Shown: positions 44,023 through 62,286 of the stretch, in pieces
Layout of the letters: the number at the start of each line of letters is the position of its first letter
Numbering within the stretch: the stretch's first letter is position 1
Assembly: GCF_020084865.1 (NCBI RefSeq)
Contig: NZ_CP071953.1
Coordinates: 2,170,001-2,234,000, forward strand
Length of the DNA: 64,000 nt
Direction: 5' to 3'
Origin: Candidatus Kaistella beijingensis
GTDB lineage: Bacteria; Bacteroidota; Bacteroidia; Flavobacteriales; Weeksellaceae
Made by a program: the position numbers and the translations under genes
Notes under the pieces: generated by a model
Told to the model about the DNA's origin: nothing
What the model saw: only the letters and a program-made list of their open reading frames with translations
Databases searched by the model: none

Positions 44023-45744
44023 AAGAATCTGTCTCACAATAAAAATTGAGGCGGATTTTTTATTGCAGTTCCAATCTTCAATGTTTTGGAAAAAGAAAAA
44101 GTTGTCTTCTTTAGGCAACTTTCTTTCTTAAATTGTGTGCTAATGCGTGCAATCCGAACTCCAATTCTACTTTTTTCAGACCTTTCAGGGTAAACCGCTT
44201 AAAATTGTTGCAATGTTTCAGATGTGCAAACACAGGTTCTACTTCAACCGAGCGTTGTCTGCGTTTTTTAATGCCTTCTTGGCTGTTTAATAGTTCCCTG
44301 ATTTTCTCTTTGTACTGTTCCAGATGATGGTTTCGCTCTACACTGCGATTTTCTTTGGAACTGTGACAAACGCCTCTGATTGGGCATCCATCACAGTTTT
44401 TAGCCTGATAATGCGAGAGTTTTTGAGGGTAACCGGTCTTGGTTTTCCGAGTGCTTTCGTGTGTTTTTTCCATCTTTTGACCCATCGCACAGACGTAATA
44501 ATCTTTTTCCTGATTGTAGTGCAGATTTTCTTTGCTGAATGTTTTGTGTTTCGCCTGATAATGGGCATCCTGCTCTTTGTCGAAGGTGTTGTATTTTACA
44601 TAAGGTGTAATATTGTTCTGTTCCAGCAATTCATAGTTCTGCTCGCTCCCATAACCTGCATCGGCAGTGAGTTCTTCTAATTCCGCCAATCTTTTTTCCC
44701 CATAGAGTTTCTCAAAATTTTTAAGATGATGCTCTAGGGTATTGAAGTCATTGGTCTGCTGGTGAATGGTATAATTGACGATGATTTGATTCTCCGTAGA
44801 AATTTGTGCATTGTAGGCGGGTTTAAGCTGTCCGTTCTGCATGTGATCATCCTTCATTCTCATAAAAGTGGCGTCTTCATCCGTCTTGCTGTAAGAGTTC
44901 CTTTCTTTTAAAATCGCTTCCTGAGCTTCGTATTTATCGAGGTTTTTCTCAAAATTATTTTTAATGTAATTCAGCTTGGCTTTAGCTTTTTTGTCGGAAT
45001 CGGTCTTGCGGTCGCTGCCTTTCAATTTGGCATTGATATTTTCTACGGTTTGCTGGATCTTTTCTTTGCTGATTTCTTTAAACTCAGGCGGTTCAGGGTC
45101 TTTGTCTTCCTCTCTTGCCACGTTTTGAGCGTATTTCCAAAGATCTTCCAATTGGCGGAGCATTTTTTCTTTATTGGTTTTAATGGCATTTGCCCAAACA
45201 AAAGTGTAGCGGTTTGCCTGTGCTTCGATTTTCGTTCCATCCACAAAAACCTGTTTCAAACTCACCAAGCCTTCATCTGCCAAAAGCAAAACTACTTGCG
45301 AGAAAATATCCTTGAAAGCCGCTTCCAGCTTATTGCTCCGGAAGCGGTTCACGGTATTGTGATCCACAATGCTCATGTTGGAAAGCCACATAAAATTGAT
45401 ATTTTCCCGAAGCGCTTTTTCTATCTTCCGGGAGGAATAAATATTATTCATGTACGCAAAAACCATCACTTTGAGCATCATCCCGGGATGATAACTGGGA
45501 TTTCCTTCTCTGCTGTAGGCTTTTAGAAGCGGATCTATATTAATTCTCTCCAAAATATCATTGACAATCCGAACAGGGTGATTTTCGGGAATCAATTCCT
45601 CAAAACTATAAGGAAACAGCACCAGCTGATTTTGGTTATAATGCTTGAAATTCATAAACAACTATCTGATTATCAATGATAAATATACAAAAATCCTAAA
45701 TAATAACCAAAAAAAATCCGCCTCAGTTGTGAGACGGATTCTTT
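44023..45744 (-). mobile_element. IS1182-family insertion sequence
   Basis: A 1.7-kb insertion sequence with one transposase gene. The terminal inverted repeats read AAGAATCTGTCTCACAA at the left (44023-44039) and, on the opposite strand, AAGAATCCGTCTCACAA at the right (45744-45728), 16 of 17 identical. A second inverted block TGAGGCGGATTTTTT follows on both sides. Read inward, each end folds into a hairpin with a T run and would stop outside transcripts. No target-site duplication was seen. It sits between pckA and the former 3' flank of ssrA. Confidence 0.9.
44111..45661 (-). CDS. IS1182-family DDE transposase
   Basis: A 516-residue transposase with the IS1182/IS5-group layout. The N-terminal DUF772-like domain reads NQLVLFPYSFEELIPENHPV then ILERINIDPLLKAYSREGNP. 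The catalytic triad can be read as D in VFVDGTKIEAQANRYTFVWA, D in LTADAGYGSEQNYELLE and E in RRQRSVEVEPVFAHLKHCNN. A cysteine cluster (CAMGQK, CDGCPIRGVC) lies between the last two. The frame is intact, so the element may still be active. Length is normal for the family. Confidence 0.94.
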   Translation of the reverse strand: MFMNFKHYNQNQLVLFPYSFEELIPENHPVRIVNDILERINIDPLLKAYSREGNPSYHPGMMLKVMVFAYMNNIYSSRKIEKALRENINFMWLSNMSIVDHNTVNRFRSNKLEAAFKDIFSQVVLLLADEGLVSLKQVFVDGTKIEAQANRYTFVWANAIKTNKEKMLRQLEDLWKYAQNVAREEDKDPEPPEFKEISKEKIQQTVENINAKLKGSDRKTDSDKKAKAKLNYIKNNFEKNLDKYEAQEAILKERNSYSKTDEDATFMRMKDDHMQNGQLKPAYNAQISTENQIIVNYTIHQQTNDFNTLEHHLKNFEKLYGEKRLAELEELTADAGYGSEQNYELLEQNNITPYVKYNTFDKEQDAHYQAKHKTFSKENLHYNQEKDYYVCAMGQKMEKTHESTRKTKTGYPQKLSHYQAKNCDGCPIRGVCHSSKENRSVERNHHLEQYKEKIRELLNSQEGIKKRRQRSVEVEPVFAHLKHCNNFKRFTLKGLKKVELEFGLHALAHNLRKKVA

Positions 45745-45822
45745 TTTGTGAGTTTGGGAGAATCCTAAGAATTCAATTTGCACTGCCGTAAATGAATCTC
45801 ACGGAAAAGGAGCGAAATTTTG

Positions 45823-45860
45823 CGCAAAAAAAATAATCTCCTGATTTACGGAAGATTATT
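45823..45860 (-). terminator. Former ssrA terminator, now stranded outside the integrated element
   Basis: On the minus strand AATAATCTTCC and GGAGATTATT form a stem around GTAAATCA, followed by a run of eight T. It lies 7 bp outside the left copy of the ssrA 3' end, exactly where the original ssrA terminator would have been before the element came in. Confidence 0.65.
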
Positions 45861-45867
45861 TAAATTG

Positions 45868-45882
45868 TTGTGGAGCAGGAGG
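45868..45882. repeat. attL: 15-bp copy of the ssrA 3' end
   Basis: TTGTGGAGCAGGAGG is identical to 61871-61885, where it forms the last 12 bases of ssrA plus three trailer bases. Identity ends sharply on both sides. Together the two copies bound a 16.0-kb segment with an integrase just inside this one. Confidence 0.85.
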
Positions 45883-45949
45883 AAAATGAACCTTATTAAA
45901 TTCATTATATCTAATTTTATGTAAATATGCTATTTACCAATATTTTATA

Positions 45950-45957
45950 TATATTTG
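45950..45957 (+). promoter_or_regulatory. -7 box of the integrase gene
   Basis: TATATTTG matches TAnnTTTG, 65 bp before the integrase ATG. The twin TTAGCACCTA repeats lie between this box and the start codon, so a protein bound to them could repress the gene. Confidence 0.45.
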
Positions 45958-46000
45958 TATAAATAAAAATATATTGTTTTTATGCTTAATTATATAAATA

Positions 46001-46022
46001 TTAGCACCTATTTTAGCACCTA
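46001..46022 (+). repeat. Left twin repeats, probable integrase arm sites
   Basis: TTAGCACCTA occurs at 46001-46010 and again at 46013-46022, a 12-bp period. The second copy touches the integrase ATG. The same pair, in the same orientation and spacing, lies at the right end of the element. Confidence 0.75.
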
Positions 46023-47264
46023 ATGAATTCAACGTTTAAACTCAAAGAACCTAACAGCGAAAAGCAAACCCTTATTTATTTCCGCTCTTATTTTGGGAAT
46101 GAAAATAAGAATTTCATCTACTCTACTGGAGAAAAAATAAAACCATCTGAATGGGATTTTGAAAATAGACAGCCAAATGATTTGAATGGAAGAACTCAAA
46201 AAGCAGAAAATCACAGAAGTATTAAAAAGCAATTAGATAGATATAGTGGTTTTTTCACTGAGATAGTTAATCGTTATAAGAATATTAATGAAGAACTGAC
46301 CACGGACGTAATTAAACAAAGATTTGATGAACATTTTAAGAAGGTAACTGTCAAAAGTGATTTTTTTAGAGTTTATCAGGATTTTTTAAATGAAAAAGAA
46401 AACGATTATACAGGAAATGCAATCTCTATTTCGACACTAAAAAGGTATAAATGTAACAAGACTTTGCTTGAAGATTTCCAAAAAGATTATAAAGTTAAAA
46501 TTACACTCGGAAATTTTGATGAAAAACTTTATAACAAATTTCTTAAATACTGTATTGAAGAAAAGAAGCATTCGGCAAATACTGTTCATCGTAATGTTGG
46601 ACTGTTAAAAACCTTTTTAGGATGGTCTTTTGAAAAGAAATATACATACAATAATAGTTTTCTCAATTTCAAAAAGCCATCAAAATTCAGGACAGATGAA
46701 ATTGCATTAAACTATCAGCAAGTGGAAGAGATTTACAATTACGATTTCAACAAAAATAAACGATTAGAAAGAGTAAGAGATTTATTTGTTTTGGGTTGTG
46801 TTACAGGGATGCGTTTTGGAAATTACAGTAGTATTTCAAAAGAAGATATTCAAGGAGATTTTATTCGTGTAGTCGATTTGAAAAGCAAAACTAAAAATCT
46901 CTCAATTCCATTGAACAGTATCTCACGAGCGATTTTAGAAAAGTATGATTATGCACTTCCAAGTATTTCCAATCAAAAAATGAACAAATTTATAAAGGAA
47001 GTTTTTCAGGAAATGGCGTTTACGGATGAAATAAAAAAGACAATGAGATATGGCGATGAATTGATAGATAAAAAATCTGAGTTTTGGGAAAGAATATCCA
47101 GCCATACCGCCAGAAGAAGTTTTATTACAATAATGAAAAACAAAAGAGTTCCAGACAAAGTGATTATGAGTTATACAGGGCATAGAAGCTTAGAAGTTTT
47201 CAATAATTATTATCGTCCTAGCGAAGAAGATAAAGTGAATTATATGAATGAAGTTTTCAAATAA
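46023..47264 (+). CDS. int: Tyrosine-type site-specific integrase
   Basis: A 413-residue tyrosine recombinase that inserts and excises the element. An N-terminal arm-binding domain (about 10-105, IYFRSYFGNENKNFIYSTGE) is followed by a SAM-like core-binding domain (about 112-210) and the catalytic domain. The catalytic residues are Arg264 in TGMRFGNYSS, Lys289 or Lys291 in DLKSKTKNLSI, His361 and Arg364 in SSHTARRSF, His387 in GHRSLEV and a tyrosine at 396-397 in NNYY. All are present, so it should be active. It starts directly after the twin TTAGCACCTA repeats and 140 bp from attL. Confidence 0.95.
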   Translation: MNSTFKLKEPNSEKQTLIYFRSYFGNENKNFIYSTGEKIKPSEWDFENRQPNDLNGRTQKAENHRSIKKQLDRYSGFFTEIVNRYKNINEELTTDVIKQRFDEHFKKVTVKSDFFRVYQDFLNEKENDYTGNAISISTLKRYKCNKTLLEDFQKDYKVKITLGNFDEKLYNKFLKYCIEEKKHSANTVHRNVGLLKTFLGWSFEKKYTYNNSFLNFKKPSKFRTDEIALNYQQVEEIYNYDFNKNKRLERVRDLFVLGCVTGMRFGNYSSISKEDIQGDFIRVVDLKSKTKNLSIPLNSISRAILEKYDYALPSISNQKMNKFIKEVFQEMAFTDEIKKTMRYGDELIDKKSEFWERISSHTARRSFITIMKNKRVPDKVIMSYTGHRSLEVFNNYYRPSEEDKVNYMNEVFK

Positions 47265-47266
47265 CT

Positions 47267-47995
47267 ATGGATAAAAAGAAATTATACGGACACTGGTATA
47301 TATGGGAAGAACTTGTTAGTTATCCAATGATGCTTTATTATTGGATCAAAGGAGATAAAATTCAAAAGATGCTTTCTGAAAGAATAGAAAAAGCAAGACG
47401 GAAAGCCGAGCAAATGACACTGACAGAAAAGAATAAAAACGAGTTTCTTATCGAATATGAAAAACTGGATAATTTTTTCAGCTACCATTTCAAGGAAATT
47501 GATAAATTCAACAGTCATAATTTTCAGGATAAGATTAACTATTGTTTGAAACAATACAGGAAGGAATCATCACAAAAATTGACTTCCTCAAATCTAATGA
47601 AATTGCAGGGCAACTTTTTGGCAGGAGCAGAGAAAACGCTATTCCTTTATTTCCTTTTATACAGGGAAAGAAAACCCAACAATTCTTTTGTGTCGATATT
47701 TTCAAGTGAGGAAAATTATAACAAATTCATTTTCGTAATGAAAAATAATTCTTATTTAGACGAAAATAACAAATTTGACATATCCGTTATTTTCTTTTCT
47801 GGAGTACTGACGTTTCTCAAAAAAAAGGGGGTAATAAAAAATGTAAAAAATATTAACATTATAAAATTATTAAAAGACGATTTTGATTTTGAAATTTCCC
47901 CATCTTCCTTTTCAAGCGGAATGCCATATCCTACTAAAGACGAAGAGAAAAAATTATTTGATGATTTATCAAAAGAACTTATGGTAAAATATTAA
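47267..47995 (+). CDS. Element protein of unknown function
   Basis: A 242-residue protein I do not recognise. A hydrophobic or aromatic N-terminal stretch (YIWEELVSYPMMLYYWIKGD) leads into a charged helical region rich in K and E (ERIEKARRKAEQMTLTEKNK), then a mixed C-terminal part. It has no signal peptide. It starts 2 bp after the integrase stop, so it is translated with it and probably has a role in integration, excision or their control. Its AT-rich composition matches the rest of the element. Confidence 0.7.
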   Translation: MDKKKLYGHWYIWEELVSYPMMLYYWIKGDKIQKMLSERIEKARRKAEQMTLTEKNKNEFLIEYEKLDNFFSYHFKEIDKFNSHNFQDKINYCLKQYRKESSQKLTSSNLMKLQGNFLAGAEKTLFLYFLLYRERKPNNSFVSIFSSEENYNKFIFVMKNNSYLDENNKFDISVIFFSGVLTFLKKKGVIKNVKNINIIKLLKDDFDFEISPSSFSSGMPYPTKDEEKKLFDDLSKELMVKY

Positions 47996-48075
47996 ATTTC
48001 ATTGAATTTACTATAATTCATAGATTAAAAACACAATCCGTTCATATTTGCATAGAAATTTTAAAAATCAATTCT

Positions 48076-48354
48076 ATGCAAACAACCAATCCATTCCAAA
48101 CCATTTTGGATGAATTAGGAGAAGTAAAAGACTTACTCTATTCCCTAAAGAAAGAACCTGAAATCGAGTTAAAAAAGAAATTCTATTCCATAAAAGAATG
48201 TTCTGATATTTTAAAACTCGATTACCAGACGGTACGCTCACACATTTTAAAAGGCAATATCAAAGCAGAACAAATAGGAAGATTTTACAGAGTCAACCAT
48301 TTGGATTTGATGAATGCTTTAAACGAGGTCAAATCGCTTAAATATAAAAGATAG
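48076..48354 (+). CDS. Helix-turn-helix (excisionase-like) protein
   Basis: A 92-residue DNA-binding protein. The C-terminal half reads FYSIKECSDILKLDYQTVRS then HILKGNIKAEQIGRFYRVNH, the MerR-like HTH_17 fold of excisionases and AlpA-type regulators. The N-terminal part is helical and acidic. In Bacteroidota elements such proteins bend DNA for excision or control replication genes. It lies between the integrase pair and the helicase. A promoter-like CATATTTG is about 20 bp upstream. Confidence 0.82.
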   Translation: MQTTNPFQTILDELGEVKDLLYSLKKEPEIELKKKFYSIKECSDILKLDYQTVRSHILKGNIKAEQIGRFYRVNHLDLMNALNEVKSLKYKR

Positions 48355-48384
48355 GCGAATAAGTTTTAACTAAAACAAAAAAAA

Positions 48385-49623
48385 ATGACCTCAGAAATTC
48401 CTTACCTAAGAGTAGGCACTACCTACTATAAAACCATAGAAAAACCTTTGATTTCAGGCGATAAAATTTCCATCTTGGTTCGCTGGAATCGAGAAACCAT
48501 TATCAGCGACTACGGAAAAACCTATCTTTCACAAATTCCGAAATATGACGGTTTTTGCTGTATCCCCAGTCATTTGAATTATGAAAAAATAATCGAAGGA
48601 TTTTACAACATGTACAATAAAATTCCTTATCAACCGATTGAAGAAAGTTTGAATTCTTATGCTCTCAAAGAAAAAATTCAGTTTTCGCTGAACTTTATGG
48701 AACATATTTTTGGAGAACAGTTTGAGCTGGGTTTGGATTACATCAAAATCTTGCTTGAAAAACCTACCCAAATGCTTCCAATATTATGTTTGGTAAGCAA
48801 AGAGCGTTCTACGGGAAAATCCACTTTTATCAAATGGCTCAAATCCATTTTCGGGTTGAATATGACTTACATTAAAGGAGATTCCTTTAACAGTCAATTT
48901 AATTCAGATTGGGCCTCAATGCTCATTGTAGCTATTGATGAGGTATTTTTCGACAAAAAAGAGATTACTGAGCGCCTTAAGTACCTTTCCACAACAGATA
49001 AAGATAAGAAAGAAGCGAAAGGAAAAGATCGTGAGGAAGTTGAATTTTTTGGAAAATTCATTCTTTGTTCCAACAATGAAGACAATTTTATTCAGATTGA
49101 TGAAGAAGAAATTCGGTTCTGGATTATCAAAGTTAAATCTATAAAAACAGAGAATACTGAATTCCTTCAAAACCTAATTAAAGAAATTCCCTATTTCCTT
49201 CGCTATCTGATTCAAAGATCGTTCTGTAGCCAGAAACAAACCCGAATGTGGTTTACTGATTCTGAGATAAGAACAAAGGCGTTACAAAAATTGGTTTGGA
49301 AAAACAATAACAAACTTGAATCAAAAATTATTGAGCTCTTGTATGAGTTTTTTGAGAGTACCGAAGAAAATGAAATCCAAGTCATTCCGCAGGATATTTT
49401 CAATATGCTCGGAAGAATGTTCAGAAACCATTATTGGACTGTAAACGACATCCGAAAGCTTCTAAAAGAAACATGGAAACTTGAACCACAAAATAATTCT
49501 TTGGCATACATCAAATACGACATTGATTATTCAGGAAGTTTTTATCAAAATAATAAAACTGGACGCTATTTCACTATTAAAAAAGATTTCATTCTTCAAA
49601 AATTTGATGAAATGATGAATTAA
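48385..49623 (+). CDS. SF3-like primase-helicase ATPase
   Basis: A 412-residue ATPase resembling the D5/VirE-type helicases of mobile elements and phages. Walker A is LVSKERSTGKSTF at about 137-148. Walker B is ASMLIVAIDEVFF at about 177-189. The motif C-like ILCSNNEDNF near 229 fits superfamily 3 helicases. A C-terminal winged-helix-like part (VIPQDIFNMLGRMFRNHYWT) may bind DNA. It precedes the TGATGAG array and the primase gene, which together look like a replication module. Confidence 0.85.
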   Translation: MTSEIPYLRVGTTYYKTIEKPLISGDKISILVRWNRETIISDYGKTYLSQIPKYDGFCCIPSHLNYEKIIEGFYNMYNKIPYQPIEESLNSYALKEKIQFSLNFMEHIFGEQFELGLDYIKILLEKPTQMLPILCLVSKERSTGKSTFIKWLKSIFGLNMTYIKGDSFNSQFNSDWASMLIVAIDEVFFDKKEITERLKYLSTTDKDKKEAKGKDREEVEFFGKFILCSNNEDNFIQIDEEEIRFWIIKVKSIKTENTEFLQNLIKEIPYFLRYLIQRSFCSQKQTRMWFTDSEIRTKALQKLVWKNNNKLESKIIELLYEFFESTEENEIQVIPQDIFNMLGRMFRNHYWTVNDIRKLLKETWKLEPQNNSLAYIKYDIDYSGSFYQNNKTGRYFTIKKDFILQKFDEMMN

Positions 49624-49655
49624 TTGATAATGAAAACAAAATCAATGGTTTATAT

Positions 49656-49808
49656 CTCATCAAAACTCTCATCAAAATATAAAAACTTGATTTTTGATGA
49701 GAAACTGATGAGCAAAAAATTTGAAGTTTGATGAGATGATGAGTCTTTGATGAGAATGTAATCTTTTAAAATACAGCAACATATACGGCTGTCTCATCAA
49801 TTCATCAA
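49656..49808. repeat. Iteron-like TGATGAG array (candidate replication origin)
   Basis: The heptamer TGATGAG is repeated in the 222-bp gap between helicase and primase genes. Direct copies are at 49695, 49706, 49729, 49737 and 49748. Inverse copies (CTCATCA) are at 49656, 49668 and 49793, with a one-mismatch copy at 49802. Many extend to TTTGATGAG. Spacing is 8-23 bp in the direct block, and inverse copies flank it on both sides. This arrangement resembles iteron origins bound by a replication initiator. Confidence 0.7.
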
Positions 49809-49845
49809 AATATTTGCGAAAATTAAACCCTAACATTTTTCATCT

Positions 49846-50790
49846 ATGAACTGCAAACAATTCAACTCTGTAAAGTTGGAAGAAATCCTTGTTTCACTCG
49901 GACACCATCCAACAAAACAAAATGAAAAAGAAGCTTGGTTTCTCAATCCTTTTTACACAGAAACACAAGCCTCTTTTAAAATTAATAAAAATCTGAATTA
50001 TTGGTATTTACACTCCGAAGGAATTGGCGGAAACAATGTCGATTTTATGAAAAAATATCTAAACGAATCAGTAAAAGAAGTTTTAGAATGGGCAGAAAAG
50101 CAAAATTTTTCTTCTTTTCAACAGCAGAATGTTATTCATTCAATAAATTCAAAACCAAATTATCAAATCACCGAAATCAAAAAACTCCAAAACGAACATC
50201 TTAAAAGCTATCTTCATCAAAGAGGACTTTCAAAAGTAGTATATCCGTTAGTTAAAGAAATTCATTTTACCATTGGAGAAAAGAAACTCTACGCTATAGG
50301 TTTTGAAAATTTTTCTGGAGGTTGGGAACTTAGAAATTCATTTTACAAAGGTTCATTACAGAAGAAAGATATTTCAATTGTAAATCTCAATAATGAAAAT
50401 CAAAATGAAACAGGGAAAAGAATTGTCGTTTTTGAAGGATTTATGGATGCTTTGTCTTTTGTGGAGATGAAACCATTCTTCATTGGCGATTTGTTGGTAA
50501 TGAATTCTATTTCATTGTTGAATAGAACCAAAGAACATTTAAAAATTTATTCCGAAATCCATTTGTTTTTAGACAATGATAAAGCAGGCGAAACTTGTAA
50601 AAATGAAATTCTGAAATCATTTCCCGAAGCCAAAAATCATTCTGAAATTTATGCTCTTCATAAAGATTTGAACGACTATTTACAATTCAAAAACAACACT
50701 GAAATCGAAAAAAAACAGCAGATAGACTTGAAATCAAAACAAGAACAAGAAGAAAGTGAAATATATCAAACTTACAAAAGAAAACGCTGA
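49846..50790 (+). CDS. TOPRIM-domain DNA primase of a mobile element
   Basis: A 314-residue primase-like protein. The N-terminal 90 residues (KLEEILVSLGHHPTKQNEKE, YWYLHSEGIGGNNVDFMKKY) resemble a DnaG zinc-binding region in layout but lack the CHC2 zinc ligands. The TOPRIM domain is clear: IVVFEGFMDALSFVEM near 203 holds the catalytic glutamate, and EIHLFLDNDKAGETC near 247 the DxD-type acidic pair. Such proteins prime replication of Bacteroidota plasmids and elements. It follows the TGATGAG array. Confidence 0.87.
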   Translation: MNCKQFNSVKLEEILVSLGHHPTKQNEKEAWFLNPFYTETQASFKINKNLNYWYLHSEGIGGNNVDFMKKYLNESVKEVLEWAEKQNFSSFQQQNVIHSINSKPNYQITEIKKLQNEHLKSYLHQRGLSKVVYPLVKEIHFTIGEKKLYAIGFENFSGGWELRNSFYKGSLQKKDISIVNLNNENQNETGKRIVVFEGFMDALSFVEMKPFFIGDLLVMNSISLLNRTKEHLKIYSEIHLFLDNDKAGETCKNEILKSFPEAKNHSEIYALHKDLNDYLQFKNNTEIEKKQQIDLKSKQEQEESEIYQTYKRKR

Positions 50791-50900
50791 TACTGCGTGC
50801 GGTTATTTTTCACCAACTATCGGCAAAAGTTAGGAGCTCATTCGCAACTTTGAAGGTCGATTCTCTCCCAACAAAGTTTCTTCTTCGCTCTGCGAGGCTT

Positions 50901-50959
50901 TAACCTGTATAAAATAGATACAGGTTATTAGGTAACATGAGTAAAAAAGACACAGGTTA
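50901..50959. promoter_or_regulatory. Inverted repeat before the relaxase gene (candidate oriT)
   Basis: TAACCTGTAT (50901-50910), 7 bp, ATACAGGTTA (50918-50927) is a perfect 10-bp inverted repeat. A third copy, ACACAGGTTA, lies at 50950-50959, 23 bp before the mob start. An inverted repeat just upstream of a relaxase gene is the usual design of oriT. The rest of the 50791-50982 gap has no visible gene. Confidence 0.55.
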
Positions 50960-50982
50960 CATCATTATCAAATTTAATAAAA

Positions 50983-52152
50983 ATGAAGACATCAATCAAT
51001 TTCAAAGCGTCAAAATCTGATTCCGAAATTCATAATTTTAGAAAAAAATCATTTGATTATATCCGCAAAGATTTAACTCCTAAAAATGAATATTGGATGG
51101 AACAAAAAATTGCAGACCGACTGTTAAAAATAGAAGCCTACTGTAAAGAAAAATCAGGCAGAAAATTACAAAAAAATGCAATGCCAATTCGGGAAGCTGT
51201 GGTTGTGATTAAAGAAAATAACACAATGCAGGATTTGCACAACCTTTCAAAAAGATTGGAAGAAGAACTTAAAATCCGAATTTTTCAGATTGCCATTCAC
51301 AAAGATGAAGGACATTATGATAAAGACACCAAAGAATGGAAATCTAATTACCACGCTCATTTGGTGGCAGATTGGCAGGATTTGGATACAGGCAAAACGC
51401 TGAAACATCAATCTTTTCATTATTCCAAAATGCAGGATTTAGCGGCGGAATGTTTGGAAATGGAAAGAGGTATTTCAGGTTCGTTAGCAAGATTAGAAGC
51501 AGTTGAATTTAAAATCAGAAAAAAAGAAGAAGATTTGAAAATTTTGGAAGAACGATACAGCCAAATGCATCAAGAGATGGAATCTAAAAAATCTGAAGAT
51601 TTAATTGTAAAAGAATCCGATTTTCTCGGTTTTCAGAAAATAAAAACAGACAAAACCATTGAAAACTACAAAAAGGCAATCAAAACAAATAACATTCAAC
51701 TTCTCAAAAATAAAACAGAACTGGAATTCAAAGAGAAACAAATTGCAGAACTCAATACCAAAATTGAAAGTCTAAAAAAAGAAGTTTCCTTTTTCAAAAG
51801 CAAAAACTCTGCGCTCTTAACCAGTGAAACTGTTTTTGCTGTTGAAAAGAAAAAATATTTGGAATCGATTGAGAATACGCTTAAAAAAAACATTTTGCAA
51901 GAAAGTATAAAAATTCCGAATATTCACACGTTTTCTAAAGACGAAATACAAGACAAGTTGATAGAAATTGTGGAGAAATGTGCGAAAGAAAATCAAATCC
52001 CAGATTCGGCTTTGGAAGAGGTTTTTAAGGATGCTCAACGCAACAAAATACTATATTCTCTACTGAGTAAAAACATCATCGAAAAGCAAACTCAAAAACT
52101 TGAAAATGAAAAGAAAAACCAAGAGAAACAGAACTTTGGAAGTAGGAGATAG
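50983..52152 (+). CDS. MobV-like mobilization relaxase
   Basis: A 389-residue DNA-nicking protein for plasmid-style transfer. The N-terminal EIHNFRKKSFDYIRKD carries the HNxR motif of MobV/Pre proteins. The metal-binding part is IAIHKDEGHYD (His106 and His111) followed by SNYHAHLVADW (His124 and His126), close to the family HxDExxPHxH. From about 175 to 300 the protein is a long charged coiled coil, and the tail is basic. No separate accessory mob gene is seen. A candidate oriT lies directly upstream. Confidence 0.85.
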   Translation: MKTSINFKASKSDSEIHNFRKKSFDYIRKDLTPKNEYWMEQKIADRLLKIEAYCKEKSGRKLQKNAMPIREAVVVIKENNTMQDLHNLSKRLEEELKIRIFQIAIHKDEGHYDKDTKEWKSNYHAHLVADWQDLDTGKTLKHQSFHYSKMQDLAAECLEMERGISGSLARLEAVEFKIRKKEEDLKILEERYSQMHQEMESKKSEDLIVKESDFLGFQKIKTDKTIENYKKAIKTNNIQLLKNKTELEFKEKQIAELNTKIESLKKEVSFFKSKNSALLTSETVFAVEKKKYLESIENTLKKNILQESIKIPNIHTFSKDEIQDKLIEIVEKCAKENQIPDSALEEVFKDAQRNKILYSLLSKNIIEKQTQKLENEKKNQEKQNFGSRR

Positions 52153-52201
52153 AATAAATATTGTACAATCAATTGAAATAAAACTTCAGCAAAATTATTT
52201 C

Positions 52202-52209
52202 TAAATTTG
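52202..52209 (+). promoter_or_regulatory. -7 box of the truncated DUF1016 gene
   Basis: TAAATTTG lies 18 bp before the ATG at 52228, so the remnant keeps its own promoter. Confidence 0.45.
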
Positions 52210-52227
52210 TAAAACATAGAATTAAGC

Positions 52228-52329
52228 ATGGATTCAAAATTTTTAGACATTCTTCATCTCATACAACAATCCCAAAACAATGCGGTAAAAGCTGTTAATA
52301 TTGAATTAATCAATCTATATTGCTATTGA
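52228..52329 (+). pseudogene. N-terminal remnant of a DUF1016 (YhcG-type nuclease) gene
   Basis: The 33 codons read MDSKFLDILHLIQQSQNNAV then KAVNIELINLYCY and stop. Up to INLY this matches the N-terminus of DUF1016/YhcG PD-(D/E)XK proteins (typically ...AVNxELIxLYWNIGxYI). After that the similarity ends abruptly near 52321. The rest of the gene, about 300 codons in the family, is missing. The break marks the junction between the mobilization backbone and the regulatory/efflux cargo. Confidence 0.72.
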
Positions 52330-52363
52330 TATTCAGCTTCTAATTTCCTTCAAAATTGATTAA

Positions 52364-52371
52364 TAAATTTG
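52364..52371 (+). promoter_or_regulatory. -7 box directly before the response regulator
   Basis: TAAATTTG ends 4 bp before the ATG at 52376, so the mRNA would be leaderless or nearly so. TTTC at 52344-52347 is a weak -33 box, 16 bp upstream. Confidence 0.5.
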
Positions 52372-52375
52372 TACT

Positions 52376-53053
52376 ATGAAGATTCTCATTATTGAAGACG
52401 AAAAAGAATTGGCTAAAAGCATTGCCGAATATCTTTCTACAGAAAATTATTTGTGCGAAAAGGCTGCGACATTTCACGAAGCGATGTATAAAATCGAAAT
52501 TTTTAATTACGATTGCATTTTGTTGGACATTACTTTGCCAGACGGTAATGGTCTTAAAATTTTAGAAGAACTCAAAAAACAACAAAAACAGGATGGTGTT
52601 ATTATCATTTCTGCCAAAAATTCTTTAGAAGATAAAATAAAAGGTTTGCAAATTGGTGCGGATGATTACCTCACAAAACCCTTCCATTTATCAGAATTGG
52701 CAGCCCGAGTGTACTCTATCATCAGAAGAAAGCAATTTGACAATACCAATATCATTCAGCAAAATGAACTAACGATTGACCTATTAGCAAAAACAGCTTC
52801 AGCAAACAATAAGCCTATTATTCTCACAAAAAAGGAATTTGATTTATTGCTTTATTTTATTGGAAATAAAAATCGTGTGCTTTCAAAAAGTACTTTAGCA
52901 GAACATCTTTCAGGGGATTTTGCGGATATGTTGGATAACCACGATTTTGTATATGCCCACGTAAAAAATCTAAAAAAGAAACTGTCCGAAGCAGGGTGCG
53001 AAACTTACTTGAAAACAGTTTACGGAACAGGCTATAAATGGGAGGTTGTTTAA
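52376..53053 (+). CDS. OmpR-family response regulator
   Basis: A 225-residue two-component regulator. The receiver domain (1-115) has the acidic pocket IEDE at 6-9, the phosphoacceptor Asp51 in DCILLDITLPDGNG and the lysine in YLTKPF near 104. A winged-helix domain (about 125-225) ends in AHVKNLKKKLSEAGCETYLK and TVYGTGYKWEVV, as in OmpR/PhoB. It heads the cargo and is followed by its kinase with a short gap. It most likely drives the efflux genes behind it. Confidence 0.94.
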   Translation: MKILIIEDEKELAKSIAEYLSTENYLCEKAATFHEAMYKIEIFNYDCILLDITLPDGNGLKILEELKKQQKQDGVIIISAKNSLEDKIKGLQIGADDYLTKPFHLSELAARVYSIIRRKQFDNTNIIQQNELTIDLLAKTASANNKPIILTKKEFDLLLYFIGNKNRVLSKSTLAEHLSGDFADMLDNHDFVYAHVKNLKKKLSEAGCETYLKTVYGTGYKWEVV

Positions 53054-53063
53054 AATATGTTTT

Positions 53064-54350
53064 ATGAAGCCTTTACTAAATAAAACCATAAAGCCGTTTC
53101 TTATTTATGTACTTATCATTTTTATGGTAAGTGTTCCGGTTTATTATTTTGTGATTGATAATATTTGGAAAAGTGAATTAGACGAACATAATAAAATGGC
53201 TGCCTTTGCCGTACAATATAATTTTAACCGCTTAAAATTATCTGATGTTGAGCTTGAAAAGAACATTGAACTATGGAATCAAGTTCAACCCAACTCAAAA
53301 TTGCAAAAAGTTGGTTCAGACGATGATTTGAAAAATAGAATATATACCGAAACCAATAAAAATATTTTTATCCAATCCCAAGAACCTGACCGTTTCCGCA
53401 TCCTTTCAACAGTTGTTTACATTAACAAAAAGCCGTACCGTCTTACCACACAAACCAATATCGAAGAATCGGGTGAAACCATTGGTGTTATTATCATTAT
53501 GACGGTTTTTTTCTTTATTTTAATCGTTGTTGGATTGTTGTTATTGACCAAAAAATTATCCAACTCTATTTGGAAACCATTTCAAAATACTTTAGCTCAA
53601 TTAAAGAAATTTAACCTCACAAAGCAGACTGAATTAATATTTGAACCAACCGATACTTTAGAGTTTACAGAACTAAATGATTCACTTCAAAAACTGATTG
53701 CTCAAAACGTTAATGTATTCAAATCTCAAAAAGAGTTTACAGAAAATGCCTCACACGAATTGCAAACACCTTTAGCGATTCTAAAAAACAAATTGGATAT
53801 TCTATTGCAAAGCGAAGGATTAACGGAAAAGCAATATCATATTGCAGAAGAAATGCATACTGCCCTCAACAGAAGTTCCAGAATTAATAAAAATCTTTTA
53901 CTTTTAACAAAAATTGAAAGCCATCAATTTGATGATACCGAAATTATTAATCTAACAGAATTAATGAATCAAAGTATCTTGATATTTGAAGAATATTTTG
54001 AGAAAAAAGAAATGAAAATTGACACTCAAATTGACCAAAATATTACAATAAAAGGCAATAATGGTTTAGTAGAAGTTTTGATTAATAATTTACTTTTAAA
54101 CGCCATTCGTTATACTGAATCAAAAGGAAATATTAATATCGAGCTTTCCAAAAATTCATTACAAATATCCAATTCAGGTCATAAATCTTTAAACTCTGAT
54201 TTGGTTTTCAAACGTTTTATCCAGCTTTCACAGGAGAAAAGCGGAAGTGGTTTAGGTTTGTCAATCGTTGAAAAAATTACTCAATTCCATCACTGGAATA
54301 TTTCATATCAATTTGAAAATAATCGCCATATTTTTTCTATAGCATTCTAA
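53064..54350 (+). CDS. Sensor histidine kinase
   Basis: A 428-residue membrane sensor partner of the preceding regulator. Two transmembrane segments (about 8-30 and 139-162) enclose a periplasmic sensor of about 105 residues. The phosphoaccepting His231 is in FTENASHELQTPLA. The N box is VEVLINNLLLNAIRYTES and the G box SGSGLGLSIVEKI. ATG at 53064 is preferred to an in-frame TTG 18 bp upstream. The sensor has no recognised domain, so the signal is unknown. The gene starts 10 bp after the regulator stop. Confidence 0.93.
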   Translation: MKPLLNKTIKPFLIYVLIIFMVSVPVYYFVIDNIWKSELDEHNKMAAFAVQYNFNRLKLSDVELEKNIELWNQVQPNSKLQKVGSDDDLKNRIYTETNKNIFIQSQEPDRFRILSTVVYINKKPYRLTTQTNIEESGETIGVIIIMTVFFFILIVVGLLLLTKKLSNSIWKPFQNTLAQLKKFNLTKQTELIFEPTDTLEFTELNDSLQKLIAQNVNVFKSQKEFTENASHELQTPLAILKNKLDILLQSEGLTEKQYHIAEEMHTALNRSSRINKNLLLLTKIESHQFDDTEIINLTELMNQSILIFEEYFEKKEMKIDTQIDQNITIKGNNGLVEVLINNLLLNAIRYTESKGNINIELSKNSLQISNSGHKSLNSDLVFKRFIQLSQEKSGSGLGLSIVEKITQFHHWNISYQFENNRHIFSIAF

Positions 54351-54392
54351 AAATTCAAAAAGTTTTCAAAGTTCAGTTGCACTTTTGTCCGT

Positions 54393-54417
54393 GAAATGTA
54401 AAAAAATTTTGCATTTC
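54393..54417. promoter_or_regulatory. Hairpin and direct repeats between kinase and efflux genes
   Basis: GAAATG...CATTTC (54393-54417) forms a long AT-rich hairpin 17 bp before the TolC start. Just upstream, TTCAAA-type repeats (near 54354, 54365 and 54371) are spaced like OmpR-family half-sites, and CACTTTTG (54380-54387) is close to a -7 box. This may be the regulator-controlled promoter of the efflux operon. Confidence 0.35.
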
Positions 54418-54433
54418 ATTTAAACAAAGGATT

Positions 54434-55666
54434 ATGCAAAGAATCGTATTCATACTTTGGCTAATGCTTATAAATAGTAGTGTTTTCAGCCAAAACACGC
54501 TTCAAGATTATCAGCAAATTGCGGAGCAAAACAGTCCGCTTCTCAAAACTTCCCAAAACAATATCAAAATTGCAGCTTTAGACAGTTTGATGCTGAAAGC
54601 AAATTATGGTTTCAATGTTAATGTTTTGGGCGATGCTTCGTACACACCTGTTATTAAAGGATGGGGTTATGATAATGCAATTAGAAATGGGCAAAGTCTT
54701 TCGGGGATTGTGCAGGTTACAAAAGATATTATCGGAAAAGACAATCTTAAAACCCGTACTCAGATTTATTCCATCGCAATTGAGCAATTGAAAAATCAAA
54801 GAAAATTGGATGCCTTAACGCTGAAAAGATTAATAACAGAACAGTATTTATTTGCATACAGCAATCAAAAGGAATATGAAGTCCTGAAGGAAATTATTCA
54901 TCTTTTTGAGCAGGAAGATATTATTCTGAAAAAGCTAACGCAAGCATCTGTTTTTAAACAAACGGACTATCTGAATTTCAAAGTGAATTATCAGCAAAAC
55001 AAGTTGGCTTTACAACAAAAGTTAAATGAATGGAACGGCAATTACAGTCAGCTGAATTATTTGGCAGGTATTCAGGATGTTCAGACAAAAAATTTGGAAG
55101 CACCCGATTTCACAACGCTTTTCCCGCCTGATTATGATAATAGTATTTACGCAGACACTTACAAAACTGACAGTCTGAAATTAGTCAACGACAAAAAAAT
55201 TATCGAGTTAGATTACAAACCCAAACTTTCGGCTTATGCTGACGGTGGTTATTCATCTTCACTTATGGTTACACCTTACAAAAACTTTGGGTATAGTGTA
55301 GGTTTGAGTTTGAAAGTGCCTATTTATGATGGCAAGAAGAAAAAAATGTTACTGCAACAAAACGAAATTCAATTGGACAACCAAAAGCAATTTTATAAGT
55401 TTAACAAAACGCAATACCAACAGAAAAAAGCAATGATAGAAAAGCAAATTGCCAATTATGACAAGATGATTACAATGGCAAAAGAACAGCTCTCATATTC
55501 AAAAACATTAATTGAAGCCAACTTGAAACAAGTGCCAACAGGCGATGTAAAAGTAACGGATTTCATTCTTTCTATCAATAATTATTTGATTTTAAAAACA
55601 GGTATTATCCAAAACGAATTACAAAGAAATATTTTACTCAACAATCTTCAAAACTTAATTCTATGA
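54434..55666 (+). CDS. TolC-family outer membrane efflux protein
   Basis: A 410-residue outer membrane channel. The signal peptide MQRIVFILWLMLINSSVFSQ is followed by two long helical repeats typical of TolC/OprM (QDYQQIAEQNSPLLKTSQNN; QKKAMIEKQIANYDKMITMA). It is shorter than E. coli TolC (about 470 mature residues), as in many Bacteroidota efflux operons. Its stop overlaps the adaptor start as ATGA (55663-55666). It forms the exit duct of the RND pump. Confidence 0.9.
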   Translation: MQRIVFILWLMLINSSVFSQNTLQDYQQIAEQNSPLLKTSQNNIKIAALDSLMLKANYGFNVNVLGDASYTPVIKGWGYDNAIRNGQSLSGIVQVTKDIIGKDNLKTRTQIYSIAIEQLKNQRKLDALTLKRLITEQYLFAYSNQKEYEVLKEIIHLFEQEDIILKKLTQASVFKQTDYLNFKVNYQQNKLALQQKLNEWNGNYSQLNYLAGIQDVQTKNLEAPDFTTLFPPDYDNSIYADTYKTDSLKLVNDKKIIELDYKPKLSAYADGGYSSSLMVTPYKNFGYSVGLSLKVPIYDGKKKKMLLQQNEIQLDNQKQFYKFNKTQYQQKKAMIEKQIANYDKMITMAKEQLSYSKTLIEANLKQVPTGDVKVTDFILSINNYLILKTGIIQNELQRNILLNNLQNLIL

Positions 55667-56589
55667 AAATAGTCCCTATAATTTCCATTCTGTTTTTTAT
55701 TGGTTTTATTTCGTGTAAAAACGATAAAGCAGCAACGGAAACTGTTCAAGAACCTGAAGTTGCTTCAAAAACACCTGTAAAAATTGGTTATGCCACAGAT
55801 ACCGTTTCTTTAGACCAAAGTATTACGCTGAATGCAACGGCAGCTTATCTTTTAAAATCCGATGTCAAAGCCAATACAACGGGCTATATCACGCAAGTCA
55901 ACATCAAATTAGCCGACCAAGTTGGGCGTGGTCAAACCTTGTTTATGTTACAGACAAAAGAAGCCCGAGCTTTGGGAAATACCATCAATAAGTTGGACAA
56001 AAGTTTTCGGTTTTCGGGTACAAGCAGCGTACAAAGTCCGAGTAGTGGCTATGTTGATATGCTGAATCACCAGATTGGCGATTACGTGCAGGATGGCGAA
56101 GTCTTGGCAAGTGTTACCGACCAAAGCAGCTTCGGTTTTGTAATGAACGTTCCTTACGAATATAATCAGTTAGTCAATCTTGGTAATCGTTTGGATGTTT
56201 TGCTTCCTGATAACAGAATTTTATCAGGATATGTGGCGAAGATAATGCCCAATGTTGACCCAGTTTCTCAAACCGAAAAAGTATTAGTGAAAGTAAATAA
56301 TGGTGGTAAGATTCCAGAAAATCTTATCGCAAAAATAGCTTTGACCAAAGACCGAAAGAGCGGTATTGCTGTTCCCAAATCATCTGTTTTGACGGATGAT
56401 GTTCAATCGGAATTTTGGGTGATGAAATTAATTAACGATACTACTGCCATAAAAACCGTCATTGAAAAAGGTTTGGAGAATGATAAATGGGTAGAATTAA
56501 AATCAAACAATATCAGTCTGAAAGACAGATTGTTGACTTCAGGAAATTTTGGTTTGTCAGATACCGCTTATGTTAAAATTGAAAAATAA
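55663..56589 (+). CDS. RND efflux periplasmic adaptor lipoprotein
   Basis: A 308-residue membrane-fusion protein. The lipobox GFISC puts lipid on Cys18. A split biotinyl-lipoyl domain is visible (AYLLKSDVKANTTGYITQVN near 60 and SSGYVDMLNHQIGDYVQDGE near 122). The alpha-hairpin between them is very short (about 20 residues), and a beta-barrel and membrane-proximal domain follow. The small hairpin suits the short TolC partner. It is translationally coupled to the TolC gene and lies 7 bp before the pump gene. Confidence 0.9.
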   Translation: MKIVPIISILFFIGFISCKNDKAATETVQEPEVASKTPVKIGYATDTVSLDQSITLNATAAYLLKSDVKANTTGYITQVNIKLADQVGRGQTLFMLQTKEARALGNTINKLDKSFRFSGTSSVQSPSSGYVDMLNHQIGDYVQDGEVLASVTDQSSFGFVMNVPYEYNQLVNLGNRLDVLLPDNRILSGYVAKIMPNVDPVSQTEKVLVKVNNGGKIPENLIAKIALTKDRKSGIAVPKSSVLTDDVQSEFWVMKLINDTTAIKTVIEKGLENDKWVELKSNNISLKDRLLTSGNFGLSDTAYVKIEK

Positions 56590-56596
56590 CTCTGCA

Positions 56597-59500
56597 ATGG
56601 ATAAGAACCCCTTTTATCTAAAATACAAAAATCCGTTATTGGTATTGGTTTTACTAACTATTATGGGCGGCGTTTTTTCGTACACAAAAATCAAATCTGC
56701 ATTATTTCCGCAAATTACTTTTCCTAAAATAAAAGTTATAGCCGATGCAGGTCAGCAACCTGTTGACCAAATGACGGTTATGGTTACACGCCCTTTGGAA
56801 AATGTCATTAAACAAGTTCCCGATCTGGAAGTGATTAAAAGCACGACAAGCCGTGGCAGTTGTGAGATTTCTGCATTTATGAATTGGAAGTCGAATATTG
56901 ATATTAGTCAGCAACAAATTGAAGGCAAAATCAATCAAATCAAGAATCAACTTCCTGCTGATATTAATATCACGGTTGAAAAAATGAATCCTTCTATATT
57001 GCCTGTGATGGGATTTACGCTCACTTCGTCTTCCATTTCTGATATTGAACTAAAGCAAATGGCTTTATACACAATAAAACCTTTTCTTTCGCAAGTAAAA
57101 GGCGTTAGTGATATTCGTGTGATTGGCGGTAAAGACAAAGAGTTTTGGGCGGTGTTAAAGCCCGATATGATGTCGAGTTTAGGCTTGTCACCTGATAAAG
57201 TTTCGCAAGCATTGAACGGCACTAATTTCATCAAATCCAACGGCTATTCTTCCGACTATCGCTACTTGTATTTAACCCTAACGAATACCCAACTAAAAAA
57301 TCTCGACCAACTTCAAAATTTAGTCATTCAGAACGATGGCAACCGTATTATTTATTTTAGGGACATTGCCGATATTAATATTCACGAAGCCAAACAATAC
57401 ATAAAAGTCAACGCCAATGGTCAAGAAAGTATTTTGATTGCAGTGGTGGAACAACCCGATGCCAACGTAGTTGACCTTTCTCAAGCAATGTTGTTGAAGA
57501 TAGATGATTTAAAAAAATCTTTACCCAAAGATGTTGAAATCAAGCCTTACTATAATCAGGCAGATTTTGTAAACGATTCCGTAAAAAGTGTAACCGATGC
57601 CCTTTGGATTGGGCTTTTGTTAGCGATTATTGTTGCCATTATTTTCTTACGTTCTTGGATTGCGAGTGTCACTATTTTACTCACCATTCCGATTACATTG
57701 AGTTTAACGCTATTGGTGTTGTATGCTACAGGTCAAACCTTCAATATTATGACTTTGGGAGCGATTGCAGCAGCCATCGGATTGATTATTGATGATGCTA
57801 TTGTTATCGTTGAACAAATCCACAGAACACACGAAGAACATCCCGAAGTTTCGAGTAAGGAATTGGTGCAAAAGGCAATCAATTATTTGTTGAAAGCAAT
57901 AGTCGGTTCTTCACTCAGCACTATTGTTATTTTTCTTCCCTTTATGTTGATGACAGGTGTTGCAGGTGCTTATTTTAAAGTGATGACTGACACAATGATT
58001 ATTACTTTAATCTGTTCTTTCTTCGCTACTTGGATTTTGTTGCCTGTTGTTTATCTCGCTCTTACGAAAATCATAAAGCAAAATAAGTTTTCTCATCACG
58101 ATGTGAAAGAAAGAAAATGGGTGGGCTTCTTTATCCGAAAACCGATTTTGTCTTATGTTTTTATTCTTGTTTTGATTGTGGCTTCTGCCTTAATTATTCC
58201 GAAAATCAGCACCGGTTTTTTACCCGAAATGGATGAAGGCAGTATTGTTTTAGATTACAATTCGCCACCCGGAACTTCTTTGGAGGAAACCGACCGTGAG
58301 CTTCGGGAAGTTGAAAAAATATTGAAAACAGTTCCTGAAGTGGAAACGTATAGCCGAAGAACAGGTACACAAATGGGATTTTTTATTACCGAACCCAATC
58401 GTGGCGATTATTTAATTCAGTTAAAGAAAAGTAGAAATAAAACTACTGATGAAGTGACCGATGACATCAGAGCTAAAATTGAAAAAACAGGATTGCCTTT
58501 AACGGTCGATTTTGGTCAGGTCATTGGCGATATGTTGGGCGATTTAATGAGTAGTGTACAACCGATTGAAATAAAAATATTCGGTACTGACCAAAAAACC
58601 ATTGAGGATTATTCCAAAAAAGTGGCAGACGTGGTAAGTAAAGTGAATGGTACTGCCGATGTGTTTGACGGGATTGTTATTGCAGGACCATCCATACAAA
58701 TTACACCTAATCTTTCTACTTTGGGGCAATACAATATTACGCCAACCGATTTTCAATATCAGGTGCAAACTTTATTGGAAGGAAATGTGGTGGGGAATAT
58801 TTTCGATAATGTCCAATACACACCCATCCGAATTTTGTACAGCAACAATTCCAATGCTTCGTTAAATGAAATCGAAAATTCGATGATTGCTTTGCCAAGC
58901 GGTATGCGAAAGCCTTTGAAGGAATTTGCGACAGTACAAGTTGCAGGCGGTAGTGCAGAGATAAATCGGGAAGATTTACAGACTTTGGGCATTGTAACCG
59001 CACGTTTGGATAATGGTAATTTAGGTGGAACAATTCAAGAAATTCAAAAGAAAATTGAAGCTCAAATAAAATTACCGCAAGGTTACAGTATTGTCTATGG
59101 CGGTGCGTATGCAGAGCAACAACAATCCTTTAAAGAATTATTGATGATACTCTGCATTTCCTCATTATTGGTATTTAGTGTAATGCTGTTTTTGTTCCGA
59201 AATATAAAAGTAGCGTTGGTTATTCTGTTGGTTTCTATTTTGGGAATTTCGGGTAGTTATTTATTACTATTCTTAACCAATACTCCTTTAAATGTGGGCA
59301 GTTATACAGGACTGATTATGATGGTCGGAATTATCGGTGAGAACGCCATTTTTACCTACTTGCAATTTCACGAAAGCATCAAAGAAAAAGGAAAACAAAA
59401 CGCCATTATTTATGCCATCAGTACAAGATTACGTCCTAAATTAATGACCGCAATTGGAGCAATAATAGCGTTAATGCCATTAGCTTTAGGAATTGGAACG

Positions 59501-59659
59501 GGAGCACAAATGCACCAACCTTTAGCCATTGCAGTTATCGGTGGTTTTATAGTCGCAATTCCGCTCTTGTTGATTGTTTTACCGACCTTACTCAATCAAA
59601 TCAATTTTGATGAAAATATCCCGCTGAATGCGCAGAAACTCGCAGAAAAAGATATTTAA
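56597..59659 (+). CDS. RND-family efflux transporter permease (AcrB/HAE1-like)
   Basis: A 1020-residue inner-membrane proton-driven pump with the usual twelve membrane segments and two periplasmic loops. Segment 4 carries the proton-relay aspartates in AAAIGLIIDDAIVIVEQIHR (near 395), the pattern of the HAE1/AcrB group. The heavy-metal group usually has DAAIVMIEN instead. The N-terminal LFPQITFPKIKVIADAGQQP is a short-loop version of AcrB. The last 15 residues (ENIPLNAQKLAEKDI) are encoded by a 79-bp repeat copied again after the stop. ATG at 56597 replaces an earlier TTG-type frame start that overlaps the adaptor. Confidence 0.93.
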   Translation: MDKNPFYLKYKNPLLVLVLLTIMGGVFSYTKIKSALFPQITFPKIKVIADAGQQPVDQMTVMVTRPLENVIKQVPDLEVIKSTTSRGSCEISAFMNWKSNIDISQQQIEGKINQIKNQLPADINITVEKMNPSILPVMGFTLTSSSISDIELKQMALYTIKPFLSQVKGVSDIRVIGGKDKEFWAVLKPDMMSSLGLSPDKVSQALNGTNFIKSNGYSSDYRYLYLTLTNTQLKNLDQLQNLVIQNDGNRIIYFRDIADINIHEAKQYIKVNANGQESILIAVVEQPDANVVDLSQAMLLKIDDLKKSLPKDVEIKPYYNQADFVNDSVKSVTDALWIGLLLAIIVAIIFLRSWIASVTILLTIPITLSLTLLVLYATGQTFNIMTLGAIAAAIGLIIDDAIVIVEQIHRTHEEHPEVSSKELVQKAINYLLKAIVGSSLSTIVIFLPFMLMTGVAGAYFKVMTDTMIITLICSFFATWILLPVVYLALTKIIKQNKFSHHDVKERKWVGFFIRKPILSYVFILVLIVASALIIPKISTGFLPEMDEGSIVLDYNSPPGTSLEETDRELREVEKILKTVPEVETYSRRTGTQMGFFITEPNRGDYLIQLKKSRNKTTDEVTDDIRAKIEKTGLPLTVDFGQVIGDMLGDLMSSVQPIEIKIFGTDQKTIEDYSKKVADVVSKVNGTADVFDGIVIAGPSIQITPNLSTLGQYNITPTDFQYQVQTLLEGNVVGNIFDNVQYTPIRILYSNNSNASLNEIENSMIALPSGMRKPLKEFATVQVAGGSAEINREDLQTLGIVTARLDNGNLGGTIQEIQKKIEAQIKLPQGYSIVYGGAYAEQQQSFKELLMILCISSLLVFSVMLFLFRNIKVALVILLVSILGISGSYLLLFLTNTPLNVGSYTGLIMMVGIIGENAIFTYLQFHESIKEKGKQNAIIYAISTRLRPKLMTAIGAIIALMPLALGIGTGAQMHQPLAIAVIGGFIVAIPLLLIVLPTLLNQINFDENIPLNAQKLAEKDI

Positions 59660-59769
59660 AATTCTGCGAAAATCGGCGAGTTCAGCGGAGGAAAATATCC
59701 CGCAGAGTACGCAGAGATATGCAGAAAATGCAAATAAACTTCTGCGAAAATCAGCGAGTTCTGCGGGAG
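59612..59769 (+). repeat. 79-bp tandem duplication across the RND stop codon
   Basis: Unit A (59612-59690) and unit B (59691-59769) are adjacent, exactly 79 bp each, and about 80 per cent identical by eye. Both begin GAAAATATCCCGC and end in a CGGCGAGTTCAGCGG or CAGCGAGTTCTGCGG block. Unit A holds the last codons and stop of the pump gene. The CTGCGAAAATCAGCG and CGCAGA words recur in the chromosome at 26380-26410. The rest of the 59660-59870 gap (ATCTGCACAATCAGCGTCAT) is more of the same family. Confidence 0.75.
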
Positions 59770-59870
59770 AGTCCAATCTGCACAATCAGCGTCATCAGCA
59801 TTCCGAAAATTCTAATTTTCTACAAAATCAGATTGCAACTTTGATATTATTAATTTTAAATACCAACAAA

Positions 59871-60461: not shown

Positions 60462-60511
60462 AAGTTGAATCCACCGTATCCTAAAATTATTAATTTCCCG
60501 TTTTGTAGATT

Positions 60512-61300: not shown

Positions 61301-61318
61301 AAACTCTTTTGTGCTTCA

Positions 61319-61741: not shown

Positions 61742-61808
61742 GAAGCAAAAAAAATAATCAAAAATAATTTCTAAATAAATTTTTATAACCTAATGTGAAT
61801 AATTTAAA

Positions 61809-61830: not shown

Positions 61831-61835
61831 TAAAT

Positions 61836-62270: not shown

Positions 62271-62286
62271 GGATTTTGTAAGGGTG

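Follow-up and report, generated by a model that had tools for sequence, protein, structure and literature searches.

A repeat array in a 16-kb integrative element

The window, by which we mean the whole 64-kb stretch of DNA that was analysed, contains an element of about 16 kb that is inserted at the 3′ end of ssrA. Its left end is marked by attL, a 15-bp direct repeat (TTGTGGAGCAGGAGG, 45868–45882), and the identical 15 bp recur as attR (61871–61885) at the 3′ end of ssrA, whose tmRNA occupies 61873–62270 on the minus strand. Reading from attL, and always on the plus strand, the element encodes a tyrosine integrase of 413 aa (46023–47264; PF00589, E 6.5e-13), a 242-aa protein of unassigned function (47267–47995; no Pfam or NCBIfam family), a 92-aa HTH_17/excisionase-like protein (48076–48354; PF12728, E 6e-6, just under cut-off, and TIGR01764, E 2.5e-5, under cut-off) and a DUF5906/SF3-like helicase of 412 aa, which we propose as the initiator (48385–49623; PF19263, E 7.4e-19, with 68.9 bits lying above the curated cut-off of 27.6). 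Behind the helicase gene come the repeat array, a DnaG-type primase of 314 aa with Zn-ribbon and Toprim (49846–50790; PF13155, E 5.7e-12; TIGR01391, E 1e-14, below the equivalog cut-off) and a probable relaxase/mobilisation protein of 389 aa (50983–52152; PF03432, E 0.0012, below cut-off). As expected of an integrative mobilizable element, both an integrase and direct-repeat att sites are present.

The same stretch is carried by a second genome (G080, locus L196) with 98.8% identity over 16,452 bp, the match running from window position 45859 to 62301, just beyond ssrA; because the tmRNA tags differ, the hosts of the two copies are different. The 242-aa protein accompanies the integrase at many related loci, and 23 of the 85 distinct loci yielded a homologue of it. 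The cargo of the element (52376–61300) includes genes for a response regulator, a histidine kinase, an outer-membrane efflux protein, and PepSY-like and PAP2 proteins, along with efflux periplasmic and RND-type pump genes that were named from their sequence alone. Just outside attL lies a transposase gene (DUF772/DDE_Tnp_1_6, 44111–45661, minus strand).

Directly behind the helicase gene, we observed an array of eleven 7-bp words that spans 49605–49807 and is ordered as two direct, two inverse, two direct, three direct and two inverse copies. Words 1 and 2 (TGATGAA, 49605–49611 and 49613–49619, plus strand) fall within helicase codons, and they are followed by an inverse pair of exact TGATGAG copies (49656–49662 and 49668–49674, minus strand), by five exact direct copies (49695–49701, 49706–49712, 49729–49735, 49737–49743 and 49748–49754, plus strand) and by a last inverse pair, made up of one exact copy (49793–49799) and one TGATGAA (49801–49807), both on the minus strand. 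A first-pass annotation of this DNA had reported eight exact TGATGAG words and one near copy, which we confirm (five words on the plus strand, three exact ones and the near copy, word 11, on the minus strand), as we do their position between an SF3-like helicase and a TOPRIM primase (PF19263, E 7e-19; Toprim_2, E 6e-12, both rounded). Its description of the array as non-coding holds for words 3–11, which are intergenic, and fails for words 1 and 2, which it had missed and which lie in the last helicase codons.

Within 49656–49808, TGATGAG occurs 8 times, whereas 2000 dinucleotide shuffles gave 0.12 copies on average and never more than 2; when any 7-mer was allowed, the shuffled mean was 2.3 and the maximum 6 (1000 shuffles). 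Over the longer interval 49602–49810 this any-7-mer control was weaker (8 against a mean of 2.9 and a maximum of 8), because the DNA is AT-rich. Across the window the word was found 20 times against 7.5 expected, with 8 of the 20 in the array. A chance repeat is ruled out by the shuffles together with conservation in relatives, and of these the conservation is the stronger argument for the array. An RNA element was likewise ruled out, there being no Rfam match in 49300–50100. The 191 bp of array DNA match their own genome once only, at the array itself. The first inverse pair is preceded on its left by a block like AAAATCAATNNNTTA (49638–49652) and the last inverse pair by a less exact copy of that block (about 49760–49790); both are seen in relatives.

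The array is retained behind the helicase in relatives

The helicase is present in 78 of 296 sampled genomes of the family and was detected by profile in 21 of the 395 genomes sampled at class level and in 13 of the 395 sampled at phylum level, two samples that overlap; from the genome_contigs scan, 80 of 135 relatives were kept. Counting as an array at least five words of the form TG[A/T]TG within 215 bp of the helicase stop, we found one behind the gene at 147 of the 166 loci with a helicase match, corresponding to 117 distinct helicases. The first-pass annotation had set beforehand, as grounds for rejecting an origin, that the array be absent from relatives with the same helicase/primase pair; sought in such relatives, the array is present. 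The 19 loci that lack it, which were left out of the counts as having fewer than five words or as broken or short, hold mostly distant or fused helicases (30–41% identity) and one broken helicase, together with L124 (54% identity), where a different, CTACA-type word was judged by eye to stand behind the helicase. At L129, a locus with a distant fused helicase (36% identity), ten copies of AGTTACA lie behind the gene (shuffle maximum 4), perhaps representing the same kind of putative origin with another word.

The geometry of the array is retained as well. The spacing of its nine intergenic copies (12-27-11-23-8-11-45-8) is identical to the base in 38 of the 117 arrays, 30 of them of TGATGA- and 8 of TGTTGA-type, and each of the nine copies is found in 71–84 of 85 distinct intergenic regions. 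At 100 of the 117 loci, two or more words matching the type of their array are located at or just behind the end of the helicase gene. Because the words of Bacteroidales persist even though the reading frame stops before them, selection acts on the DNA.

Several individual loci deserve mention. At two of them (L013 and L025) the primase frames look interrupted, with helicase and array intact. A contig labelled Streptomyces sp. ISL-12 (L080) and Chryseobacterium sp. ISL-6 (L078) have identical arrays, and the Streptomyces label probably reflects contamination. In Bacteroides uniformis pBUN1 (L114), the helicase-array-primase module sits in a 124-kb plasmid, with a MobV relaxase and a gene annotated as a class A beta-lactamase behind it. 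Helicase relatives with 40–45% identity occur on 4 Bacteroides/Phocaeicola plasmid records, three of which are small circular automated assemblies and one a large plasmid, records that are too weak as support for autonomous replication. The phage collection yielded distant matches only (105 records, 0 covering 80% of the query), and the VBR1 plasmids proved to be unrelated by domain, as far as they are described in the relevant part of PMC12753305.

The repeat word changes together with a predicted winged helix

The majority word of the 117 arrays is TGATGAG in 48, TGATGAA in 13, TGATGCA in 7, TGATGAC in 5, TGTTGAG in 28, TGTTGAA in 11 and some other word in 5. A single third letter is used throughout in 92 of the 117, and most of the others have one stray word, with L115 and L131 as true mixtures of word types. 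In the viral_contigs set, whose arrays are of Bacteroidales type, 12 of 32 arrays keep to a single letter, and the other 20 also include words of the opposite type, frequently at their right end. From one relative to another, nearly all copies of an array change their word together.

We compared how many changes of the third letter are needed on three trees of 107 loci; the 10 of 117 loci without a recognised primase were dropped, and L131 was kept out of the trees. Six changes are needed on the tree of helicase residues 1–285 and five on that of residues 286–404, as against 22 on the primase tree, of which 11 are forced by supported branches. Because 5–6 word changes are needed with the helicase and 22 with the primase, we conclude that array and helicase remain together through exchanges of the primase.

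The C-terminal domain of the helicase is a predicted DNA-binding winged helix. Its AlphaFold2 model (residues 303–412, codons at 49291–49620, plus strand; mean pLDDT 91.8) has a helix at 353–363 and wing strands at 373–380 and 386–393, so placed that codon 353 (49441–49443) marks the start of the predicted recognition helix and codon 372 (49498–49500) the foot of the predicted wing, just before the strand. The model of the whole helicase is weak (pLDDT 72, Foldseek TM 0.34); with it, Foldseek matched the C-terminal region of NrS-1 (6k9c, E 8e-7) and the SaPI5 primase-helicase (7ola_A, E 0.024, probability 0.85). The C-terminal domain alone gave no Foldseek match at E 0.001, and a profile search of the PDB gave no sequence relative of the helicase, the best E being 0.09.

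Outside columns 405–412, the helicase columns most strongly associated with the word are 353, 385, 377 and 372. Columns 405–412 were set aside as readers of the word, including positions 407, 408 and 411, which are among the best associations, because their codons contain the words themselves. Residue 353 (Arg with T-words), which we had first favoured, fails in L158 and in Bacteroidales. Residue 372 is Ser or Thr where the third base of the words is A, and Gly or Ala where it is T, in 111 of the 112 helicases that have the motif; the exception is L105, four distant helicases lack the motif and L131 was left out. Thirteen columns differ in every one of the four contrasts, and 372 alone among them shifts with the same chemical direction in each, as judged from the letters.

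The same rule was then applied to the viral_contigs set, where it holds in all 32 classifiable distinct rows (16/16 with Ser/Thr have A, 16/16 with Gly have T), a set that is not fully independent because one of its rows repeats an earlier helicase C-terminus exactly. These 32 rows are what is left of 42 after removal of 5 duplicate, 3 short and 2 mixed ones; array type was called by a 2:1 majority, and the two mixed rows outside the 32 have Gly and a majority of T-words.

Close relatives show the same co-change on a finer scale. L007 and L004 have 98.6% identity in helicase residues 1–285 and 87.4% in 286–404, and their majority words are TGATGAA and TGATGAG, respectively. L007 and L166 have in common nine of the eleven changes in the winged-helix region that separate L007 from the window, and the word of L166 is that of L007, although the remainder of their helicases differs. 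Independent word switches are few (6–7 on the core-helicase tree), and a pair test with 2–4 supported pairs, 0 of them in the wrong direction, has too few pairs to reach p 0.05. The array may hitch-hike with the adjacent 3′ end of the helicase gene; as the sole cause of the association this is disfavoured, because breaks between array and primase are many and because the change at residue 372 is a repeated one.

A probable origin of replication read by the helicase

The first-pass annotation had likened the array to an origin with iterons and had suggested that the element replicates after excision. Its likeness to an origin is supported by the retention of the array in relatives, by its fixed geometry, by the co-change of word and winged helix and by a layout resembling that of SaPI and SCCmec, as these are presented in part of PMC7581432; replication after excision is put forward here as a proposal. 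We consider it likely that the array is an iteron-type oriV of this 16-kb integrative mobilizable element, read by the helicase whose gene precedes it.

What can be read in the DNA is the array with its fixed geometry, its association with this helicase and the joint change of word and winged helix; from these we infer binding, ring loading, melting, priming and replication after excision in the following form. The winged helix of the DUF5906/SF3 helicase would bind words of the form TTTG[A/T]TGAG, several copies of which, on both strands, would seat helicase rings. The AT-rich spacers would melt, the helicase would load itself and unwind, the neighbouring Toprim primase would prime and a host polymerase would copy the excised circle. 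Two helicase rings facing in opposite directions would be well served by words on both strands, and an array without a DnaA box fits self-loading. No match to the DnaA box TTWTCCACA with at most one mismatch was seen in 49604–49845, and window-wide such matches occur at chance level (65 against 62.8 expected); among the ten proteins encoded in 44111–55666, none matched a Rep_3 initiator. With no DnaA box in the array and no Rep_3 match, a DnaA-dependent or Rep_3-type iteron plasmid origin was ruled out.

In three relatives, the gene that follows the array is not a primase: at L113 the genes behind it have no Toprim match, and at L092 and L151 the next genes encode a small protein and a relaxase-like protein, as read from their sequence, with no primase in the ORF lists. 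Because the array is kept at all three loci, primase control is not its only task, and the operator for the primase promoter that the first-pass annotation had offered as an alternative becomes less likely. An array that is mainly an operator, through which the helicase or the HTH protein controls transcription of the primase and mobilisation genes, with replication elsewhere or not at all, would account for its location upstream of where the primase gene starts; sites in several copies can have a regulatory role, and initiators often repress their own operons. We nevertheless regard such a role as unlikely, since the array begins inside the helicase gene, its word goes with the helicase rather than with the primase, and eleven sites at fixed spacing over 200 bp exceed what a simple operator needs. 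The HTH protein, which we also rejected as the reader of the words, has a homologue at no more than 32 of the 85 distinct loci, a number lowered in part by contig ends that truncate some of them.

Mobilisation genes lie directly behind the array at L092 and L151, and in the present element a relaxase-like gene stands behind the primase, as might be expected if the array were a site for partition, incompatibility or the relaxosome (oriT). We judge this to be improbable, given that a mob homologue occurs at just 18 of 85 distinct loci and that the relaxase varies or is absent by homology at most loci while the array stays; moreover, the word follows the helicase, and no partition gene is found among the annotated neighbours. 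The element also has an integrase and an excisionase-like protein, for which the array might supply arm sites or excisionase sites, but the array is 3.8 kb away from attL and 12 kb away from attR, and it is also kept where integrase homologues are unrelated or lacking; we give this explanation very little credence.

An origin read by the helicase can be extended to a joint claim, which we hold to be about evenly poised between right and wrong: a Bacteroidota-wide family of elements would have its replicon word set by residue 372 (Ser/Thr for A, Gly/Ala for T), the copies changing together at fixed spacing and the origin reaching back into the final helicase codons. If this is true, the excised elements would fall into compatibility groups set by exchange of the word, and they would replicate, even though the name given to several of their Bacteroides relatives is non-replicating units.

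Comparison with known replication modules

The SaPI Rep helicases recognise, through their C-terminal domain, iterons directly downstream of their own gene, and the C-terminal domain (400–538) of SCCmec Cch2 binds a putative origin downstream of the helicase gene, according to the account of these proteins given in PMC7581432. The module described here resembles that of SaPI in combining the initiator helicase of a chromosomal island with iterons directly downstream and, in our case by prediction, a C-terminal reader (as outlined in PMC7581432). It differs from SaPI5 in having a separate Toprim primase where SaPI5 has a fused one, and from SaPI in general in that it belongs to Bacteroidota, that the element carries a relaxase-like gene and no recognised phage-packaging gene, and that its words lie on both strands in a fixed pattern starting inside the helicase gene. 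With SCCmec it shares a helicase of the self-loading type, a separate primase (CCPol-MP in SCCmec), a putative downstream origin and short iterons; SCCmec has three AAGTG iterons as compared to eleven words here, and a primase derived from an A-family polymerase as compared to DnaG/Toprim here (SCCmec features as summarised in that part of PMC7581432).

In SGI1, whose replication after excision has been demonstrated, iterons downstream of rep are needed for this replication, as reported in the pertinent section of PMC7433901. Both SGI1 and the present element are integrative mobilizable elements in which iterons follow closely on a replication gene. In that section its initiator is of RepA type, its iterons are 17 bp long and GC-rich and a DnaA box is present, whereas the present module has an SF3 helicase and 7-bp words and lacks a DnaA box. 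ORF904 of pRN1 is also comparable: this SF3 helicase ends in a winged helix, and an origin lies just downstream of its gene, but that origin is a stem-loop without iterons in the description available from PMC4234260.

Implications and co-resident elements

A 2017 review of integrative mobilizable elements, in the part that deals with the excised form (PMC5704250), calls the maintenance of that form an unexplored world and states that replication of excised elements had never been studied; replication of SGI1 has been shown since then, as set out in a section of PMC7433901. Among the open-licence PMC papers searched, we found no such origin in integrative mobilizable elements of Bacteroidota. 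A conserved helicase-iteron module would provide elements of this phylum with a common replicon whose specificity code can be read, and it makes their replication directly testable, with the residue and the base to test both named.

Sixteen genomes of the family carry two to four elements each. Of the 27 pairs of co-resident elements, 18 differ in word, compared with a mean of 15.1 in shuffles (p 0.17), which is within chance, and the differing words are suggestive at most as a sign of incompatibility. In two of the genomes (G070 and G080), the words of the two A-type elements end in different bases, with 8 copies of TGATGAA in one element and 8 copies of TGATGAG in the other.
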